Virus record (IMG/VR): IMGVR_UViG_3300042868_002001
Span: 1-24,907 of that record
Source of the DNA: a virus
Strand: one strand, 5' to 3'
Length of the DNA stretch: 24,907 nucleotides
Shown here: positions 11,913 to 24,145 of the stretch, piece after piece
Position numbering within the stretch: the first letter of the stretch is position 1
Layout of the letters: the number at the start of each line of letters is the position of its first letter
Notes under the pieces: generated by a model
What the model saw: only the letters and a program-made list of their open reading frames with translations
Database searches by the model: none
Told to the model about the DNA's origin: nothing
Made by a program: the position numbers and the translations under genes

Positions 11913-12522
11913 TATTTTCTTTCAGTTGGTTAAGGGTAGTTAGCGTTACATCAACTTCTGCCAAAAATAGCAGAACTTCTGTTTCTAACTTATTTGCATA
12001 TTCGGCATCGTATGGATAACGCTGTACGAACATTTGCAACTCTTGAGGTAGCCTTGGGTCAAAGCTAATGAAATCGCACCACTTGCGACCAGTACAAATC
12101 ATTTGCCAAGTCATCTGAGCTTTGTGCTTATTTGGAATCTTGCCATTCAGCAGGGTTTCAATATGCGTATTGGTCTGTGGGCATTTGATTTCAATCAAAC
12201 CATCTTGGCCAACCAAACCATCAGGCGAAGCCCCTGCCATCAAAGTCGGGTGCTGAACAAATCCAACCTCATCAACTAAGACGCTGTTCTTCATCTCATA
12301 AGCCGCCCTAGCAAGTGGCTCGGTCTCTGTGCCGTGAGCCATTGCAGGAGTGCTAAATGACTCTGCCGCCTTGCCTGTTAAGCGTTCGCATACAAGCTGT
12401 GCCAAGTAGTTGTCGCGACTCGCGGCATATCCTGTTTTGGTACGAGCCACAATGTCTTGAACCTTACTGGCAGTCACCCGCCCAAGACGCGCGGCAAACC
12501 ATTCTTCTGTGCCTTGTTCCAT
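11893..12522 (-). CDS. YqaJ/lambda-type recombination exonuclease
   Basis: This 209-residue protein matches the YqaJ viral recombinase family: EEWFAARLGRVTASK (residues 6-20), HGTETEPLAR (63-72), and the catalytic core ASPDGLV then IEIKCP with D101, E111 and K113. These form the PD-(D/E)xK metal site. The enzyme degrades one strand from double-stranded ends, leaving single strands for the annealing protein encoded just upstream in transcription order. AAGGA precedes the ATG. The exonuclease, ERF and SSB-tip protein form a self-contained annealing recombination set like Red or RecET. The length is normal for the family. Confidence 0.92.
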   Translation of the reverse strand: MEQGTEEWFAARLGRVTASKVQDIVARTKTGYAASRDNYLAQLVCERLTGKAAESFSTPAMAHGTETEPLARAAYEMKNSVLVDEVGFVQHPTLMAGASPDGLVGQDGLIEIKCPQTNTHIETLLNGKIPNKHKAQMTWQMICTGRKWCDFISFDPRLPQELQMFVQRYPYDAEYANKLETEVLLFLAEVDVTLTTLNQLKENNGKDNL

Positions 12523-13494: not shown

Positions 13495-13587
13495 TCAGCC
13501 CCTCCAAGCAAGTAGGACACCAATGCCGCCAAAGATGACGATGGCTAAAGTGGCTTCAATTAAAAAAGTAATGATTTTGTTTATCAT
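13495..13587 (-). CDS. 30-residue membrane protein
   Basis: The ATG at 13587 overlaps the stop of the preceding minus-strand gene, and the ribosome binding site of the next gene lies inside its end. The peptide is one transmembrane helix (TLAIVIFGGIGVLLAW) with a charged start (MINKIITFLIE). Coupling on both sides supports translation. Function is unknown. Confidence 0.5.
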   Translation of the reverse strand: MINKIITFLIEATLAIVIFGGIGVLLAWRG

Positions 13588-13790
13588 AATAAATCTCCCC
13601 ACTCTTTTGAATCTGTTTCCTCTTTGTAACCCTGTGTATAGGCGGCTCGCTCTTCTGAAGTCAATTCAGTAACATATTTGGATTGCAAAGAATCTCCAAC
13701 AAAGTAATGCGGATTGAAATCGCGTGCGTAATATTTGTCAGCTGACCCTCTGTCGTATGCACCGCCATGCCGTGTGTATTCTGCTTTCAT
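13584..13790 (-). CDS. 68-residue polar protein, common early-operon type
   Basis: The protein is rich in Tyr, Asp and Gly (TRHGGAYDRGSADKYYARDF, then SEERAAYTQGYKEETDSKEW). It overlaps both neighbours by four bases. I associate the pattern HGGxYDRGSADxYY with a widespread small protein of unknown function in phages of Proteobacteria. No membrane segment or enzyme motif is seen. Confidence 0.65.
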   Translation of the reverse strand: MKAEYTRHGGAYDRGSADKYYARDFNPHYFVGDSLQSKYVTELTSEERAAYTQGYKEETDSKEWGDLL

Positions 13791-13993
13791 GCTGTTACCT
13801 CACTTTTTGAAATGGTTGCAAATTCTGTCAAAGAAACAAGACGCACATTCTTGCTGTCAATCCTCCAACCTTTCGCTCTCGCAAATCGTATTGCTTGCAT
13901 GAACGTACAAGGCACAGTTACATCGTGCCAAGTATTGTCATAATCGCTGAACAATACGATCAGGTAGTCTTTTTTCCATGCTGTGCTTTTCAT
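13787..13993 (-). CDS. 68-residue hypothetical protein
   Basis: The protein has an alternating hydrophobic N-terminus (KDYLIVLFSDYDNTWHDVTV) and a basic helix (QAIRFARAKGW). It overlaps both neighbours by four bases. It may be a small alpha/beta fold. No function can be assigned. Confidence 0.55.
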   Translation of the reverse strand: MKSTAWKKDYLIVLFSDYDNTWHDVTVPCTFMQAIRFARAKGWRIDSKNVRLVSLTEFATISKSEVTA

Positions 13994-14190
13994 GCTGTAG
14001 CCCCCTCATGGTGCATTTCGTAATAGGCTTGAGCATCTTCCGCAGTTGATGCTTCCCATTCGCGGCAGATTGCAACTTCATGGCCATTGTTGAAAACAGC
14101 CATCCAAGCCGCAGGAATAGTGCAGTTCAGGCGGTGATGGAAATATTCCGCTTGAAGATAAACTTCGGTGATTTTGAATTGTTTGAACAT
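13990..14190 (-). CDS. 66-residue hypothetical protein with its own leader
   Basis: The ATG at 14190 is preceded by AAAAGGAAT. An upstream start at 14280 is rejected because it would include a hairpin and the repeated leader. The protein has a beta-like N-terminus (FKITEVYLQAEYFH) and a helical C-terminus (EASTAEDAQAYYEMHHEG). It is the first gene of the small chain leading to ERF. A TATAAT on the minus strand lies about 50 bases upstream. Function is unknown. Confidence 0.55.
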   Translation of the reverse strand: MFKQFKITEVYLQAEYFHHRLNCTIPAAWMAVFNNGHEVAICREWEASTAEDAQAYYEMHHEGATA

Positions 14191-14215
14191 CTTGATTCCT
14201 TTTAAAAGACCCCGA
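14191..14215 (-). repeat. Repeated leader, copy 1
   Basis: Minus-strand sequence GGTCTTTTAAAAGGAATC lies just before the ATG at 14190. CTTTTAAAAG is a perfect palindrome that includes most of the ribosome binding site. Close copies precede the genes starting at 15613 and 15921. Confidence 0.6.
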
Positions 14216-14238
14216 CTGAAATTGCAGGGCATAGACGA

Positions 14239-14244
14239 ATTATA
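14239..14244 (-). promoter_or_regulatory. Candidate minus-strand promoter -10 box
   Basis: A perfect TATAAT is read on the minus strand at 14244-14239, placing the start point near 14232 and giving a leader of about 40 bases for the gene at 13990-14190. The -35 region is weak (TTCCAA at 18 bases), so activator help or a chance match is possible. Confidence 0.4.
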
Positions 14245-14270
14245 AGCCAGATTATTTAGAGTTTGGAAAC

Positions 14271-14296
14271 CCCCCATCAATTTATTTTGATGAGGG
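14271..14296 (-). terminator. Hairpin after the DUF932 gene
   Basis: CATCAA (14275-14280) pairs with TTGATG (14287-14292) around a six-base loop. Flanking C and G runs extend the stem with one bulged base. On the minus strand the stem is followed by TTTCC, a very short U-tract, so termination would be partial. It separates the DUF932 gene from the next promoter and leader. Confidence 0.45.
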
Positions 14297-14307
14297 AAAA
14301 CCCTTGG

Positions 14308-15279
14308 TTATGCCAATAGCAGGGATTCGGCCTCGCTTTTCATGCGGTTGCCATTGCCAAACCATGCGTTGTTCATGCGGCTGTCAACATTGTGGCCTTT
14401 GTCGTGGTCAATGTATTGGGTGACAGCATTGAGCAAGCCCCATCGCGTACCCCCTGCGCCCTGCAAATCTGCGCCCATGCCCTTTCCCTCAAACAACTCA
14501 AGCACCTTGTTGTATCCGCGAGATGGCTTGAACTCGGCAGTCTTTGGGTCAAAGTTGGCAGGGAATAAATTTGTCAGGAAGTCTTTGACAAAAGTGACAC
14601 CGACTTGCTGACGCGCAAGATGGCGGTACTTGTCCATCATGCCGTCAAAGCCGCTAACCACTAGGCCGAGCTTGTCACGCATCAGGCTCGCATCAAACTC
14701 GCGACCATGCGTAATATTGAACCGACTAGGGGCAACCTCATTGTCAGCGGCTGAAAGAGTGTTGTTGCAGACCACACGGACGCTAGTGAATTGGCCAACA
14801 GTTGCGGTAGAGCCATCAAAGCTAGTGGACAACAGCAAATAACCGCGAACGGCATCATCGCCAAGGACACAGGCCTCTTTGTTTGTGTTTGCCAATGCCC
14901 AAATGCGCTTACCGCCTTTAATCGCTCCTGCGACCTCTAGCTTGAACCCTGCGCTTTGCATCAGCACATTGAAGAAGTCCAGAACATCTTTGGGCTGATG
15001 GAGCTTGTATCGGTTGGTGACCAAACCGAGCGGGGCAAAGGTATCGCTTCTGTAAACGACATTCTGACCCTGTACGCGCAACATATCGCCATCTGAACCG
15101 AGGGGTTCAAAACGAACAGGCGACACTTGAGCTTGCCAATCAAGCCCCGCCATCTTTGCCCATGTTTCAATGTCAGCATCAGGGTTCAATTCTTGGCCAA
15201 GACCATGCCAAGGCTTCTGACCCACATAGGCGATCTCTGCCATACCTGTAGTTGCGTTTGTTTCGATTAAATGTGCCAT
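14308..15279 (-). CDS. DUF932 phage/plasmid-like protein
   Basis: This 323-residue protein matches DUF932: the N-terminus has WHGLGQELNPDADIETWAKM (residues 24-43), followed by TNRYKLHQPKDVLDFF, LLSTSFDGSTAT and VRVVCNNTLSAA, the most conserved blocks. The family is found in phages and plasmids, is often strongly expressed early, and has no agreed function; involvement in DNA metabolism or defence evasion has been guessed. The leader TTAAAGGAAATTTATC precedes the ATG. The gene stands alone between two hairpins, unlike the overlapping genes downstream. Length is typical. Confidence 0.85.
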   Translation of the reverse strand: MAHLIETNATTGMAEIAYVGQKPWHGLGQELNPDADIETWAKMAGLDWQAQVSPVRFEPLGSDGDMLRVQGQNVVYRSDTFAPLGLVTNRYKLHQPKDVLDFFNVLMQSAGFKLEVAGAIKGGKRIWALANTNKEACVLGDDAVRGYLLLSTSFDGSTATVGQFTSVRVVCNNTLSAADNEVAPSRFNITHGREFDASLMRDKLGLVVSGFDGMMDKYRHLARQQVGVTFVKDFLTNLFPANFDPKTAEFKPSRGYNKVLELFEGKGMGADLQGAGGTRWGLLNAVTQYIDHDKGHNVDSRMNNAWFGNGNRMKSEAESLLLA

Positions 15280-15300
15280 GATAAATTTCCTTTAATTAAA
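15280..15300 (-). repeat. Repeated leader, diverged copy 4
   Basis: TTTAATTAAAGGAAATTTATC before the DUF932 start shares the AAAGGAAAT part and an AT palindrome (TTTAATTAAA) with the other leaders, but lacks GGTC. It may be a degenerate copy. Confidence 0.35.
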
Positions 15301-15314
15301 TTTCAGAGTTGCGA

Positions 15315-15335
15315 GCAGGGGCTTGCGCCCCCTGC
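15315..15335 (-). promoter_or_regulatory. Strong GC hairpin between the 15341 gene and DUF932
   Basis: On the minus strand GCAGGGGGC pairs with GCCCCTGC around a GCAA tetraloop, with one bulged G. It lies just after the TAA of the upstream gene. No U-tract follows, so transcript protection or processing is more likely than intrinsic termination. Confidence 0.45.
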
Positions 15336-15340
15336 CATTG

Positions 15341-15613
15341 TTAACACCAACCAAGACCCAGATTCACAGGGGTAGTTTCATAGATGCCAACAAATTTACG
15401 AGTTGAATCATCCAACTTCGCACAAGCCTCTTTAGCTTGGGCTTCAGTTGAGTAATCTAACTTTTCATTGAGTTGAGCTTTCAGGCTAACTCTGATGTAC
15501 TTGACCATCAACATCAAGTCTCTGCGAGTTGAATCCTTCTTTGTCAAAACAAGTTCATCCCAGACCTTGTCTTGATTTATTGAAACACTCCAAAATGATT
15601 TTCCAGTTTGCAT
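15341..15613 (-). CDS. 90-residue hypothetical protein
   Basis: The protein starts at 15613 behind a copy of the repeated leader, with AAAGGAAAT as ribosome binding site. It has a possible beta start (SFWSVSINQDKVWDELVLT), a basic helix (RRDLMLMVKYIRVSLKAQL), and a helical C-terminal half. No family is recognised. It stands alone between hairpins, in the first part of the minus-strand block. Confidence 0.6.
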   Translation of the reverse strand: MQTGKSFWSVSINQDKVWDELVLTKKDSTRRDLMLMVKYIRVSLKAQLNEKLDYSTEAQAKEACAKLDDSTRKFVGIYETTPVNLGLGWC

Positions 15614-15639
15614 TTTTAATTTCCTTTAAAAGACCCCGA
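15614..15639 (-). repeat. Repeated leader, copy 2
   Basis: Minus-strand CTCGGGGTCTTTTAAAGGAA, followed by ATTAAAA, precedes the ATG at 15613. It shares CGGGGTCTTTTAAA with copy 1 and GGTCTTTTAAA with copy 3. Confidence 0.6.
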
Positions 15640-15674
15640 GGGGATTGTTGTGATGTGACAGATTGCACATCTCA

Positions 15675-15693
15675 AGGCTCACCGCATGAGCCT
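15675..15693 (-). promoter_or_regulatory. Perfect 7-bp hairpin after the 15706 gene
   Basis: AGGCTCA (15675-15681) pairs with TGAGCCT (15687-15693) around a five-base loop, about 12 bases past the minus-strand stop. There is no U-tract. It resembles the hairpins after the next two minus-strand genes. Confidence 0.45.
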
Positions 15694-15705
15694 CAAGATA
15701 TGTAA

Positions 15706-15921
15706 TCAGGCAACGATGTTGAAGTGGAAATGCACTCCGTATTGCATTGCGCTAGTGCCAATGAAGCAAGGAAAGAAGCGGCCATCGGTATGAGTCAAAA
15801 CCATGTAACGCAGTTGATTCAAATCGAATTTGTCAGAGGGAAAAACTTTCTCAACAGCCTTAATTGCATTTGCAACGGTAGCGTAAGTTTTGTTAGGTGT
15901 AAGTTGAACTTGAGTTGACAT
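15706..15921 (-). CDS. 71-residue hypothetical protein, first gene of the minus block
   Basis: The protein has a helix (TYATVANAIKAVEKVF) and a conserved-looking C-terminal half (DGRFFPCFIGTSAMQYGVHF) that I associate with a small early protein of aquatic phages. Its ATG at 15921 follows repeated-leader copy 3 with AAAAGGAAA. As the gene nearest the divergent control region it should be the first one expressed leftward. Function is unknown. Confidence 0.6.
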   Translation of the reverse strand: MSTQVQLTPNKTYATVANAIKAVEKVFPSDKFDLNQLRYMVLTHTDGRFFPCFIGTSAMQYGVHFHFNIVA

Positions 15922-15948
15922 TTTGATTTCCTTTTAAAAGACCACAAG
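15922..15948 (-). repeat. Repeated leader, copy 3
   Basis: Minus-strand CTTGTGGTCTTTTAAAAGGA, followed by AATCAAA, precedes the ATG at 15921. The palindrome CTTTTAAAAG is perfect here, as in copy 1. Confidence 0.6.
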
Positions 15949-16123
15949 ATGTTTGCGGCATGGATGAATTTTGCATCAGAAATAATAAAAAACGTATTTA
16001 TTCTAAAAATATTTATAAATTCCCTTATTTTTGTACCTTTCGTTGTTTTTTTGGCACATTTGACAGCTGTCCCCTCAGGGTTTCCACTTATTTGCGTTAG
16101 CTAAACTTGCTTATAATGGCGAC
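15949..16123. promoter_or_regulatory. Divergent early control region
   Basis: This gene-free stretch separates the leftward recombination block from the rightward replication block. It is very AT-rich at 15975-16035, which offers several weak -10 boxes for leftward transcription but none with a clear -35. A perfect 10-base palindrome GACAGCTGTC (16062-16071) is a candidate operator. For rightward transcription there is TATAAT at 16112-16117, with the weak TTTGCG (16091-16096) as -35. I see no repressor gene on the leftward side. Confidence 0.55.
16112..16117 (+). promoter_or_regulatory. Rightward promoter -10 box
   Basis: TATAAT ends six bases before the ATG at 16124, so the transcript should start at or next to the start codon. 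A -35 match is weak (TATTTG at 17 bases or TTTGCG at 15). Confidence 0.5.
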
Positions 16124-16279
16124 ATGAAAAAAAATGATGCTATTAAACTTGCAGGAAGTATCAAAGAGCTTGCGCTTCTATTGGGCATTTCTCAACCCGC
16201 GATTTCCATGTGGAAAGAGGATGTGCCAAAGATGCGTGTCTTTCAACTTCGTGCTTTGAAACCTGAGTGGTTTTTGTAA
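16124..16279 (+). CDS. Cro-like helix-turn-helix regulator
   Basis: This 51-residue protein is nearly all one helix-turn-helix: SIKELALLLGISQPAISMWK (residues 12-31) followed by VPKMRVFQLRALKP. That layout matches short Cro/YdaS-type repressors. It would bind operators in the divergent region just upstream and repress early genes, possibly through GACAGCTGTC. No ribosome binding site precedes the ATG, and the -10 box is so close that the mRNA is probably leaderless, as for lambda cI from PRM. No cI-type partner lies in the window, so lysogeny cannot be judged. Confidence 0.75.
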   Translation: MKKNDAIKLAGSIKELALLLGISQPAISMWKEDVPKMRVFQLRALKPEWFL

Positions 16280-16378
16280 TTTGAAACACGGCTAGGATGG
16301 ATTAATTACCCATCTGAAAAGAGTTCTCCCCCTCTCCTGCCGAGGTTTCTTTTAGGGGGCTGTTTGAAAAGGGCGGCT
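16280..16378 (+). promoter_or_regulatory. Structured gap before the replication gene
   Basis: The 99-base gap holds two possible stems: GATGG with CCATC around 16297-16315, and CCCCCT with AGGGGG (about 16328-16359) around a 20-base loop. No U-run follows. They may modulate translation of the replication gene or weaken read-through from the regulator. Confidence 0.3.
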
Positions 16379-17131
16379 ATGCACTATTACCAGTTCAACA
16401 TTGGTGACTACCACACGCACACACTACATCTGAACGAGATGGAGGATTTGGCTTATCGCCGAATGCTTGATTGGTGCTACTTACATGAAAAAGAATTGCC
16501 ATTGGACTACGAGCAGATCGCAAGACTGATTCGTATGCGGTCGCACACCGATTGCATTGCGGTCGTAGTGCAAGAGTTCTTTACGCGACACAATGATGGT
16601 TGGATCAGCGAGAGGGTATTGCAGGAAATTGAACACTACAAAGCAAAAATTGAACAGGCATCAAGGGCGGGTAAGGCATCTGCTGAACGAAGAGCCAACG
16701 TCAGTCCAACGGGCGTTCAACCAACCAATAACCAACAACCAATAACTAACAACCAACAACCATTAGATATAGATGCTATCGCATCTTTGCCGGAAGAGGG
16801 TCTTCCACCCTGTCCACACAAAGAGATTATTCAGTTATACAAGAAGCATTTGCCGCACCTGACACAGCCGCGAGTTTGGGAAGGGAATAGGCAGACAGTT
16901 TTGAAAAGCCGATGGATACAAGCCTCAAAGCCATCAAATTATTCCCCTGATGGTTACAAGACGCGGGAAAGTGGGTTGAAGTGGTGGGATAGTTTCTTTG
17001 GTTACATTGCCAATGATTCATCTTTGAACAACGGCTTTAAAAGCAAAGATAGAACATGGTTGCCTGATTTGGAGTGGATAACTACCGCATCAAATTTTGC
17101 AAAAATAATAGATGGGAAATATGCAAAATGA
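16379..17131 (+). CDS. DUF1376 replication protein
   Basis: The ATG at 16379 follows AAAAGGG and gives 250 residues; a TTG at 16364 would overlap that site. Residues 1-100 match DUF1376 (YdaU): YYQFNIGDYHTHTLHLNEME, DLAYRRMLDWCYLHEKELPL and GWISERVLQEIEHYK. This winged-helix domain is found in phage replisome organisers. Residues 112-129 are an Asn/Gln/Pro repeat linker. The C-terminus (RTWLPDLEWITTASNFAKI) is the conserved tail of many phage replication initiators. It should bind the origin and recruit the host helicase machinery, since no helicase, loader or polymerase gene is seen nearby. Confidence 0.82.
   Translation: MHYYQFNIGDYHTHTLHLNEMEDLAYRRMLDWCYLHEKELPLDYEQIARLIRMRSHTDCIAVVVQEFFTRHNDGWISERVLQEIEHYKAKIEQASRAGKASAERRANVSPTGVQPTNNQQPITNNQQPLDIDAIASLPEEGLPPCPHKEIIQLYKKHLPHLTQPRVWEGNRQTVLKSRWIQASKPSNYSPDGYKTRESGLKWWDSFFGYIANDSSLNNGFKSKDRTWLPDLEWITTASNFAKIIDGKYAK
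16723..16764 (+). repeat. Tandem repeats within the replication gene, iteron-like
   Basis: Six tandem heptamers of consensus AACCAAY occur here, or equally two 21-base units (16723-16743 and 16744-16764) that match at 18 of 21 positions. Because 21 bases is about two helical turns, they could be binding sites for the protein encoded around them, like the iterons inside lambda O. In the protein they appear as two copies of TNNQQP in the linker. Confidence 0.5.
16771..16786 (+). other. Small hairpin next to the tandem repeats
   Basis: AGATGC and GCATCT form a perfect 6-base stem with loop TATC, seven bases after the repeats and next to a short AT-rich stretch. It could be part of an origin or merely coding sequence. 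Confidence 0.3.
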
Positions 17132-21691: not shown

Positions 21692-22626
21692 TCGTTGTTG
21701 TTGATTTTGATGGGACATTGGCAATTGGACATACGCGCATCATGGACAGGATGCCCAATCACGCGCTAATCAAACGCTTGCAAGATTTGAAAAGCACAAT
21801 CAATCCAATAATCAAAGTCGTTACAGCGCGTGGCTCAAGATTCGGCTTGTCAGAGAGCCAGAAGATTGAAAAATATCATAAAGATATCAAAACTTGGCTA
21901 AATTTGCACAATGTGCCGCATGATTGCATTTCTTTCAACAAAGAATATGGCGCGATTTACATTGATGACATGACTGTCAGCCAAGACGCTGATTTTTCAA
22001 GCCTCTTGAGTCCATTCACTAAAAATAAGCTAATCTTCACAGACAGCACAGTAATCAAGAAAACTGTGAATGCAGAATTGGAATACGCTTGGTATAAGGC
22101 GGCAGATAGCATCGTACAGACACCGAGAATATTATTCTGCAACGATGAGATGATCATTCTTGATAGAGTAAAAGAACACAGGAAGCCGACAGCGCATGAA
22201 ATTATTGATTTGATTGAGTCGTACAAGAATAAATCAATCAAAAATTATTCTTTTGACAGCTACAAGCGAAATTTGCCAAGAATTAGATACGCGACAGCCA
22301 AAGTGAAGACCATCATTGATGGACTAGATGAACATGAGCCATCTTTCTTTCATGGCGATCTTTCAACAACTAACATTCTTGTGAAAGATGGCAAGATTTA
22401 CAGCATCGATCCGAACTACAAAGGCATTTTTGGAAGCTATCTGACGGATGCAGGAAAGGCTTATTTCAGTCTGCTTGCATACGAACAAAGTTATTCACAG
22501 GCAAAAATAATTTCAGATAAGTATGGCCAAGATGTAATCAAGTATGCCATCGCAGAAGGATTGCGGGTTTGCAAATACAACAGCAAATACATTTCTGTTG
22601 TTAACAACATGACGGATTTGATATGA
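21688..22626 (+). CDS. Fusion of HAD phosphatase and choline-kinase/APH-like kinase
   Basis: This 312-residue protein joins two domains. Residues 1-110 are a HAD phosphatase: VVDFDGTLA with D6 and D8, VVTARGS with T46, and YIDDM with D93/D94. Residues 115-312 are an aminoglycoside/choline kinase-like domain with the catalytic loop FFHGDLSTTNIL (D224, N229) and the metal motif YSIDPNY (D241); its N-lobe is short. One chain may therefore phosphorylate a small substrate and remove phosphate from another. With the nucleotidyltransferase before it and the glycosyltransferase after it (4-base overlaps), it probably makes the activated group for base modification. Cell-surface modification is the alternative. 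Confidence 0.75.
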   Translation: MIVVVDFDGTLAIGHTRIMDRMPNHALIKRLQDLKSTINPIIKVVTARGSRFGLSESQKIEKYHKDIKTWLNLHNVPHDCISFNKEYGAIYIDDMTVSQDADFSSLLSPFTKNKLIFTDSTVIKKTVNAELEYAWYKAADSIVQTPRILFCNDEMIILDRVKEHRKPTAHEIIDLIESYKNKSIKNYSFDSYKRNLPRIRYATAKVKTIIDGLDEHEPSFFHGDLSTTNILVKDGKIYSIDPNYKGIFGSYLTDAGKAYFSLLAYEQSYSQAKIISDKYGQDVIKYAIAEGLRVCKYNSKYISVVNNMTDLI

Positions 22627-23351
22627 AGATTGCAATACCAACCCATCGGAGGTCAGATTCAATAACCAAACTTACTTTGAGTTTGCTATCTGATTTTGAT
22701 AAGAAAGATATTTATTTATTCATAAGCGATGAGCAAGATATGACTCTGTACAAGCAAATTTGTCCAGAGTACAACCTTGTTTTATGCGAGACAGATAATG
22801 CAACTGATAAATTTAATTACATCCAAAATTATTTTGATGTAGGAGTGTTTGTAATTGTCATTGAGGATGACATCAAGCATATACAGTCTTTGATGACAAA
22901 GGATTTGAAGAAGCTCTTTGGGTTCATAATAAATTATTGCAACAATAAACAAATCAATTCTTTCGGTGTCTATCCAAGCTCAAACAAATTTTTTATGAGT
23001 AAGACTATAGATATTGGAGCGACATACATCGTTGCTAATCTTTTTGGATTCAAATCAACAAAAGACCATCGTGTTCTTTGCCAACTTAAAACAAAGACAG
23101 ATTATGAAAGAAGCGTCAAGTTCTATAAACACATGGGGAATATTGCGCGTTTCAATTTCATATCTTGCCTGACAAACAATTACACCAATAAAGGTGGAAT
23201 GCAGGAAATCGCAGATAGAGCGAGCCTTGAAAGGCAAGCATCACTCATGCTGTGCAAGTTATATCCTGACATTTTTTCTATCAATGAGAATAGAAAATCC
23301 AAATACACAGAGATTCAAATGGCCAAGAATGTTGTGAAAGAACAGCTATGA
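22623..23351 (+). CDS. GT-A glycosyltransferase, TET/JBP-associated type
   Basis: This 242-residue protein starts with a GT-A strand (MKIAIPTHRRSDSITKLTLS) and has VIVIEDDIKHI with E81-D82-D83 in the place of the DxD metal motif, then KTDYERSVKFYKHMGNIARF (from 158) and NNYTNKGGMQ, which look like acceptor-side and late catalytic motifs. Glycosyltransferases of this general type have been reported next to TET/JBP genes in phages. The ATGA overlap with the dioxygenase gene suggests coupled translation. The likely acceptor is a hydroxymethyl pyrimidine in DNA. Acting on a host surface glycan is less likely, as there is no membrane segment. The gene looks very AT-rich. Confidence 0.75.
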   Translation: MKIAIPTHRRSDSITKLTLSLLSDFDKKDIYLFISDEQDMTLYKQICPEYNLVLCETDNATDKFNYIQNYFDVGVFVIVIEDDIKHIQSLMTKDLKKLFGFIINYCNNKQINSFGVYPSSNKFFMSKTIDIGATYIVANLFGFKSTKDHRVLCQLKTKTDYERSVKFYKHMGNIARFNFISCLTNNYTNKGGMQEIADRASLERQASLMLCKLYPDIFSINENRKSKYTEIQMAKNVVKEQL

Positions 23352-24145
23352 ACTATGTAGAACTCAAGCAACTCAAGCACAGCATAAAGATTGGAGATGT
23401 ATGCGGTGATATTGAGCCAAATGTCACAGAGGACACAATATTCTTGTCAGACGATAAGATTGTTGGCTTCTATATCAAGGAGATGACAGGGCGAGTCAAA
23501 CAGCTTGCTGATGTTGCCAATGCTGAGTTCCTTTCTGACAGAGTGCCAAAGTCTTTCATGGACAGGAAGAAGCCAATGGGTCAGGATGAGAATGGCAAGA
23601 ATAAGTATCATATCATCCGGCAATACAGCACAATCCTTGGATCAATAGCACCCAAGCCACATATGAAGAGGGTGTATCCTGCGATCTCTAGCGTACATCA
23701 GGTTAAGTCAGCGCAGACATTTGTCAAGGCCATGCTCCTGCTATGCAAAGAATCAGAGAAGCTGATGCTAGAGATTGCTCCAGAGCTTTATGAAACGCAA
23801 AAAAGAATCATCACAGAGCAAGTCCCGCCTGAATTCCGCTTCGGAGAATTGTTCACATCCAGTATCAGCAACTTCAATATCTCTGCACCTTTCCATAGAG
23901 ATGCCGCTAACCTTGAAGGATGCGTCAATGTTATTATTGCCAAGAAGAAGAACGCGAGAGGTGGCAATACGACTGTGCCTGACTATGGGGCAACTGTTGA
24001 CAGCAGGGACAATTCAATGTTGGTGTATCCTGCATGGCGTAATGTCCATGGAGTTACCCCCATCCATCCAATAGTTGAAGGTGGATACAGGAACTCTTTG
24101 GTGTTCTATCCGCTGAAAGCATTTGCCAACCATTGGAAACAATAG
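23348..24145 (+). CDS. TET/JBP-family Fe(II)/2-oxoglutarate dioxygenase
   Basis: This 265-residue protein has the TET/JBP core in its C-terminal half: SNFNISAPFHRDAANLEG with the HxD iron ligands H183 and D185, GGNTTVPDYG (205-214), a turn with D218/D221, VHGVTP with the third iron ligand H234, and YRNSLVFY with R248 for 2-oxoglutarate. In eukaryotes TET oxidises 5-methylcytosine and JBP hydroxylates thymine; phage members hydroxylate 5-methylcytosine as the first step to hypermodified bases. The N-terminal half is phage-specific. No cytosine C5-methyltransferase is in the window, so it must lie elsewhere or thymine is the target. Composition looks richer in GC than the three genes before it. 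Confidence 0.85.
   Translation: MNYVELKQLKHSIKIGDVCGDIEPNVTEDTIFLSDDKIVGFYIKEMTGRVKQLADVANAEFLSDRVPKSFMDRKKPMGQDENGKNKYHIIRQYSTILGSIAPKPHMKRVYPAISSVHQVKSAQTFVKAMLLLCKESEKLMLEIAPELYETQKRIITEQVPPEFRFGELFTSSISNFNISAPFHRDAANLEGCVNVIIAKKKNARGGNTTVPDYGATVDSRDNSMLVYPAWRNVHGVTPIHPIVEGGYRNSLVFYPLKAFANHWKQ

Follow-up and report, generated by a model that had tools for sequence, protein, structure and literature searches.

A repeated leader ahead of minus-strand genes of an uncultured phage, the probable 3' part of a portable, Cro-type-controlled expression cassette

The leftward gene unit and its repeated leader

The 24,907-base IMG/VR virus record IMGVR_UViG_3300042868_002001 (the window), from a phage described as freshwater-type, encodes a tape-measure protein, an endolysin and a ParB-like nuclease, and its leftward unit with Erf, YqaJ exonuclease and DUF932 genes adjoins a divergent P22-Cro-family gene. 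Here we analyse a short leader that recurs within this unit. Its core, GGTCTTTTAAA, is present in three exact copies on the minus strand (14201-14211, 15625-15635 and 15933-15943), each just 5' of a minus-strand open reading frame (ORF; starts at 14190, 15613 and 15921), while 0.02 copies would be expected by chance from dinucleotide shuffles and none of 100 shuffles reached three. A first-pass annotation of this DNA had described a repeated leader ahead of these three genes, and these counts bear it out. The same annotation had named the duplication of whole gene-plus-leader units as an outcome that would count against it. When this was checked, the four window proteins turned out to be mutually unrelated (best between-gene blastp E 0.19), and the copies are therefore not such duplications.

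The three elements are matched by the covariance model R1 (Table 1) and have no Rfam family match on the minus strand (E<=10, 13500-16500). Two of them read GGTCTTTTAAAAGGAA; the 15613 copy has AAA instead and so lacks the full palindrome CTTTTAAAAG. The copy at 14190 is the full form, the one at 15921 lies beside the Cro-like gene with a weak -10 box and no operator over it, and the one at 15613 is a promoterless copy within the transcription unit, with no -10 box at the usual spacing by eye. A diverged form had also been seen ahead of the gene starting at 15279. That leader gave no R1 match at E<=0.1, its likeness is a Shine-Dalgarno (SD)-like AAAGGAA alone, and it is no copy. The remark that the leaders precede the minus-strand genes without upstream overlap was nearly right, except that the gene starting at 12522 also clears its neighbour, by 3 nucleotides (nt). 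The span 14191-15948 on which these statements were based cuts into the 15921 leader and leaves out its promoter as well as the operator-like sites by the Cro-like gene, all of which are required to recognise the element for what it is.

Table 1. Coordinates of the leader elements, associated sites and genes in the window.
Feature	Position	Strand	Description
Leader element of gene 15706-15921	15927..15961	-	Predicted +1 at 15961; hairpin CCGCAA/UUGUGG, UCUUUU, AAAAGGAA; R1 E 3.5e-8
Weak -10-like hexamer CAAAAT	15968..15973	-	6 nt ahead of predicted +1; from sequence and spacing rule
Leader element of gene 15341-15613	15619..15645	-	Hairpin AUCCC-CUC-GGGGU, UCUUUU, AAAGGAA; R1 E 7e-4
Two additional inverted repeats	15652..15694	-	Between gene 15706-15921 and the promoterless element; read from sequence
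Leader element of gene 13990-14190	14195..14232	-	Predicted +1 at 14232; hairpin from G3, UCUUUU, AAAAGGAA; R1 E 2.3e-9
-10 box TATAAT	14239..14244	-	6 nt ahead of predicted +1; from sequence and spacing rule
Operator-like inverted repeat WTAAG-N4-CTTAW	14242..14255	.	1 mismatch; over the 14190 -10 box; position enriched in relatives
Operator-like site ATAAATTCCCTTAT	16015..16028	.	1 mismatch; between leftward promoter and Cro-like gene
Weak operator-like site	16101..16114	.	2 mismatches; over -10 box of Cro-like gene (16112-16117)
Candidate P22-Cro-family regulator, 51 aa	16124..16279	+	Divergent from leftward unit; PF14549 E 2.7e-10; PDB 1rzs Cro E 1.9e-4
Gene behind element, 71 aa	15706..15921	-	DUF7456-like, below cut-off
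Gene behind element, 90 aa	15341..15613	-	No family match; replaced by unrelated genes or absent in relatives
Gene behind element, 66 aa	13990..14190	-	No family match
Leader of DUF932 gene 14308-15279	15280..15340	-	Non-member here (SD likeness only)

The larger unit in IMG/VR phages

The window copies form the 3' end of a larger unit that is widespread in IMG/VR phages and consists, in this order, of a sigma70-like promoter, a predicted +1, a hairpin, a U-rich stretch, a Shine-Dalgarno sequence and an AUG. A motif scan of viral contigs gave at least 118 stretches, many of them within this longer unit ahead of diverse ORFs and others chance matches inside genes. Further scans looked for CATGCC...GGTCTTTTAAA (the matches listed), for CATG...CTTTTAAAAGGAAAT (91 stretches; stem unselected except for CATG) and for GGGTC...AAAGGAAA (62 stretches; T-run free). 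Two promoter-anchored scans with promoter and GCC only (71 and 41 stretches) left everything 3' of GCC unselected. L028 (no hairpin) was left out of the set of 124 leaders and L320 (no 3' arm) out of the unselected set; L123, a chance genome-contig row, stays among the 78 unique copies and was excluded from alignments A1 and A2. R1 matches were found at 75 places in 30 of 30 records, 1-4 per record, which holds by construction because the records had been chosen for carrying the element; a few weak matches aside, the copies of each of these records lie in one stretch of a few kb. Host copies were considered and rejected: all 5 genome-contig matches lie in stop-free frames of 723-1497 nt in unrelated metagenome-assembled genomes and were taken as chance matches.

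The promoter stands at a fixed distance. From the end of the -10-like hexamer to the A of ATGCC there are 6 nt in 98 of 112 unique leaders and 7 nt in another 8, and usual sigma70 geometry puts that A at +1, so that the predicted +1 lies exactly 7 nt past the -10 box in those 98. ATGCC is absent in 14 of 124 unique leaders; by eye, several of these hold the spacing with another triplet, and several, the window 15613 copy included, are promoterless and lie downstream of other inverted repeats. A minimal leader peptide (AUG-CCN-stop) was rejected: of the 111 promoters with AUG, among 123, 69 do have an in-frame stop next, but ATGCC is absent from those 14 leaders and several of them retain the -10-to-stem spacing by eye.

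The hairpin begins at about predicted +3, and its 3' arm ends in GGNCUW in 76 of 77 unique 36-nt downstream sequences of the unselected set. The third stem pair is formed in all 48 unique unselected hairpins (CG in 36, GC in 10, AT and GU in one each), compared with a mean of 29.8 and a maximum of 40 in 5000 shuffles. The fourth, formed in 42 of 45 (shuffle mean 39.8, maximum 44), covaries little by itself, and the outer two C-G pairs are invariant and, as they never vary, speak neither for nor against pairing. A second, overlapping set, gathered differently, gave 22 both-sides-changed cells as opposed to 4.2 in shuffles (0 of 500 shuffles), with slid controls lower. It consists of 47 long-loop sequences chosen by hand from 77 aligned, the MAFFT alignment A1 having misplaced the short-loop copies, which A2 left out (47 of 77 kept). 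On this 47-sequence set RNAalifold predicts the same stem unaided. The CC and GG arms are 6 to 18 nt apart, a variation that argues for an RNA hairpin rather than a DNA-bound dimer. For 36 of the 48 hairpins at most 5% of shuffles were as stable, and in context the stem probability exceeded 0.5 in 73 of 88 leaders. At 15921 the predicted fold (-7.5 kcal/mol) places the hairpin upstream of an unpaired SD; at 14190 (-8.4 kcal/mol over 73 nt) the hairpin is again upstream and only the edge of the SD touches a weak second helix.

In most promoters an inverted repeat WTAAG-N4-CTTAW, centred at -16.5, lies over the -10 box. At this one fixed centre it is exact in 104 and has at most 1 mismatch in 191 of 243 unique promoters, and only 45 exact repeats occur elsewhere within 400 nt; extra operator-like sites number 91 upstream (30-300 nt) versus 14 downstream. 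Among 196 unique promoters, the mean number of complementary half-site pairs (of five) is 3.92 at -16.5, compared with no more than 2.15 at any of 24 other centres, and the pair (-23,-10) is complementary in 114 of the 196, versus a shuffle maximum of 88. The right half-site was partly selected by the promoter-anchored scans and the left one by no scan; in promoters from other, earlier scans the left half-site has at most 1 mismatch in 97 of 123. P22_Cro (PF14549) was detected in 28 of the 30 element-bearing records, in 26 over the cut-off, versus 3 of 14 control genomes, and 18 distinct Cro-like genes lie 71-154 nt upstream of an element in divergent orientation. The operator consensus of P22 c2 (2R1J) has the same half-site and the same N4 spacer (PMC9976882). 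The phage's own regulator of the P22 Cro type, whose gene is the divergent neighbour, is the most likely protein to bind the inverted repeat. The leader had been proposed as a common control target. A control target it appears to be, through this inverted repeat over the -10 box and not through the sequence then named.

The Cro-like genes themselves look leaderless, as the window -10 box stands 6 nt ahead of the start codon (16112-16126) and, by eye, such a box stands 5-7 nt ahead of it in most of the Cro-like genes of 18 relatives (L260-L286). Between the Cro-like gene and a DUF1376 primosomal gene, 16285-16359 (plus strand) gave a full-length, sub-threshold match to the int-alpA RNA of Rfam (RF02996; 27.4 bits versus 35.8, E 0.0075). 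Farther away, neighbouring genes at 22623-24145 (plus strand) have PHROG matches, to a glucosyltransferase (E 1.2e-8) and, strongly, to queuine tRNA-ribosyltransferase, which suggests DNA or nucleotide modification.

The genes behind the elements are diverse: their ORFs encode 147 proteins in 42 crude clusters, LPD29 and DUF932 among them. At the 15613 copy, ten relatives carry the same gene (4: L047, L114, L077 and L236), an unrelated gene (4), a third gene (1) or none (1). In L033, L048, L076 and L017, sequences match at 95% up to window position 15607 and at 90-94% again from 15333, with the other gene between. In L228, 99 nt are kept at 99%, followed by a third gene that by eye is a relative of the second; in L112 no gene intervenes and the DUF932 gene comes directly after the leader. 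The swaps have their breaks at the start codon and immediately beyond the stop codon. Since the unit precedes unrelated proteins of about 40 clusters and close relatives have exchanged the gene it leads, the suggestion of a portable expression signal is upheld. In L228 the 99 nt comprise the two inverted repeats at 15652-15694 together with the promoterless element, and another gene stands behind them; this inverted-repeat block is possibly a processing site.

Among named phages, a blastn search of INPHARED with the typed consensus returned marginal matches only (best E 5). By eye, the element is absent at the gene homologue in Rhodoferax phage P26218 and Xanthomonas phage X1, and R1 found no match in three other named phage regions, where 5' hairpins of different sequence are seen by eye. 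Among the DUF932 leaders of six named phages, a hairpin near the predicted +1 is seen by eye in L353, L354, L355 (where it starts later) and L356, and none in L357 and L358. In stability tests, which covered the leaders other than L353 and L357, the native fold was equalled in 3 of 500 shuffles for DSL-LC04, 13 for ACP17 and 24 for V45v66; the result was negative for IME-SM1 (264 of 500) and not significant for the similar-looking leader of MW202544 (121 of 500). In Acidovorax phage ACP17 several genes (L360-L367) follow a repeated promoter of another kind, whose initial transcribed region is conserved and for the most part unstructured.

Proposed function and competing explanations

We consider it rather probable that the repeat belongs to a portable, Cro-type-controlled early-expression cassette, as its 3' part, and that the cassette's 5'-terminal hairpin protects the mRNA while the SD stays free. 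The sequence statistics behind this proposal cover the repetition, the promoter-hairpin spacing, covariation, the operator-like repeat, the Cro association and the diversity of downstream genes. A sigma70-like promoter, its -10 overlapped by WTAAG-N4-CTTAW and putatively bound by the divergently encoded P22-Cro-type regulator, would start transcription 7 nt past the -10 box and give an mRNA beginning with AUGCC. From about +3 a hairpin would form, with a 3' arm ending GG-U/A-C, followed by a short U-rich stretch, the Shine-Dalgarno sequence and the AUG. Since only about 2-3 nt are unpaired at the predicted 5' end, the hairpin would hinder attack by RppH and RNase E from that end, in the manner of ompA and of stem-loops engineered at the 5' end; the U-rich stretch and the SD may meanwhile stay open to the ribosome. 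Short early mRNAs from several units would then be stable, well translated and jointly shut off by the Cro-like protein.

Several observations weigh against this proposal. The stem is short, often 3-4 pairs plus G-U, its probability in context is 0.5 or less in 15 of 88 leaders, and the predicted accessibility of the SD is moderate (median 0.50). The +1 of the transcript is a prediction from the -10 box. In the window, the -10 of the 15921 copy (CAAAAT) is poor and is covered by no operator, a promoter is missing from the 15613 copy, and operator-like sites with at most 2 mismatches are not enriched window-wide (52 versus 44.1 expected). ACP17 has, at a repeated promoter, a conserved start region that is mostly hairpin-less, and so a conserved initial transcribed region need not imply a hairpin.

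The hairpin and U-rich stretch might instead be a site for an RNA-binding or RNA polymerase-loading factor, acting in antitermination like lambda nut or HK022 put or as a translational regulator, and not a stabiliser. We regard this as unlikely, even though the element forms the first leader of a leftward early unit beside a Cro-like gene, a position comparable to that of nutL in lambda, and the GGNCUW after the stem is highly conserved and retained in promoterless copies. In the hairpin and its tract, which this comparison covers, loop length and sequence differ within one phage, unlike the fixed boxB loop that accompanies boxA in a nut site, as the 6-18 nt between CC and GG illustrate, tract variants such as CUAUC occur, and there is one small hairpin only, whereas HK022 put has two.

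It is also unlikely, and slightly more so, that the leader is retained mainly as a recombination joint, a short sequence common to gene starts at which the phage's annealing recombinase (Erf, with YqaJ exonuclease) swaps early genes. The gene swaps and loss at the 15613 copy among ten relatives and the presence of Erf and YqaJ genes in the same unit fit such a role. However, covariation, the fixed -10 distance and the operator would be needless for a joint, and a joint role may have come about as a consequence of the expression function.

That the hairpin and U-rich stretch act as an intrinsic terminator or a pause site close to the promoter (an attenuator) we judge improbable. Most copies do have a GC-containing stem followed by UCUUUU, but the stem has mostly 3-4 pairs and the tract only 4 U, unselected copies include CUAUC, CUAUU and CUUAAAGG tracts, a terminator scan calls no window copy, and none of these copies has at least 5 pairs followed by at least 5 T in 8.

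The first-pass model, in which self-pairing of CTTTTAAAAG, in a single RNA or from copy to copy, masks the ribosome binding site, is highly improbable: the 10-nt palindrome is present in two of three window copies, but it is absent from the 15613 copy and exact in just 13 of 48 unselected hairpins, its A-run ranges from 2 to 5 although the T-run is mostly 4, its predicted energy is 0 kcal/mol as a monomer and -6.8 as a dimer, and this poor conservation and weak folding led us to reject it. Unselected copies also include CTTTTAGAAAG, CTTTTTAGGA, CTATTAAAAGG and CTTAAAGG, and 68 of the 78 unique copies have TTTT as their T-run, the A-run of the 78 being 4 in 38, 3 in 19, 5 in 11 and 2 in 10; the palindrome is a side effect where the U-rich stretch meets the A-rich SD. 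Taken as a whole, the earlier interpretation is partly supported.

Extending the cassette proposal, we tentatively picture an integron-like early region, in which one Cro-type repressor would govern dispersed promoters with operator and hairpin leader and the leader would double as a swap joint for the recombinase; this is possible but doubtful. If it were true, a newly plugged-in gene for host takeover or anti-defence would come under regulation and have a stable, translated mRNA from the outset. Early genes of many uncultured phages are marked by the unit, which can therefore be used to locate transcription starts and to list unknown early proteins, which possibly include takeover or anti-defence genes. 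It also offers a natural repeat series for gauging what a hairpin at the 5' end does to phage mRNA, and the shared leader may guide gene swapping.

Comparison with known systems

The leader of T7 gene 10, a strong expression leader transcribed by the phage RNA polymerase, has a 5' hairpin, an AU-rich stretch and an SD; the element described here is alike in layout and has no sequence relation to it. No description of the unit was found in the literature searched, most subscription papers lying outside its reach.

Cluster K mycobacteriophages carry short repeats, called SAS and ESAS, just upstream of the start codons of non-structural genes of unrelated families (PMC3203893). SAS has a 13-bp asymmetric consensus 3-7 bp from the start codon in 11-19 copies per genome, the text consulted gives it no promoter geometry, and for ESAS the authors find RNA pairing little supported (PMC3203893). 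On that description, our element resembles them in standing ahead of many unrelated families, in overlapping the SD, in its one orientation and in the extra upstream inverted repeat. Its consensus, GGUCUUUUAAAAGGAA, is unlike that of SAS, and it differs in having 1-4 copies, RNA covariation and a fixed -10 spacing; it works similarly and is a non-member.

According to a review, bla mRNA in E. coli is stabilised by a 5' hairpin that also hampers RppH, and RppH of B. subtilis requires at least two unpaired nt (PMC3997798). Like the stabilising stem-loops of ompA, papA and hairpin-tagged bla, the element has its hairpin within a few nt of the 5' end, here a predicted end with a covarying stem at predicted +3. 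It differs from them as a repeated, portable phage element with fixed promoter and SD, in which stabilisation would be the presumed role.

The operator symmetry TTAAG-N4-CTTAA is that of the 2R1J operator (PMC9976882), and inverted TTAAG half-sites with a 4-bp spacer occur here too, in promoters near a Cro-family gene. Here the putative operator lies over the -10 of several promoters along the leftward unit, and the kinship of the Cro-like proteins with P22 Cro is remote (1rzs E 1.9e-4). Start-associated repeats, 5'-terminal stem-loops and Cro operators are each known; their union in one portable cassette appears to be new.

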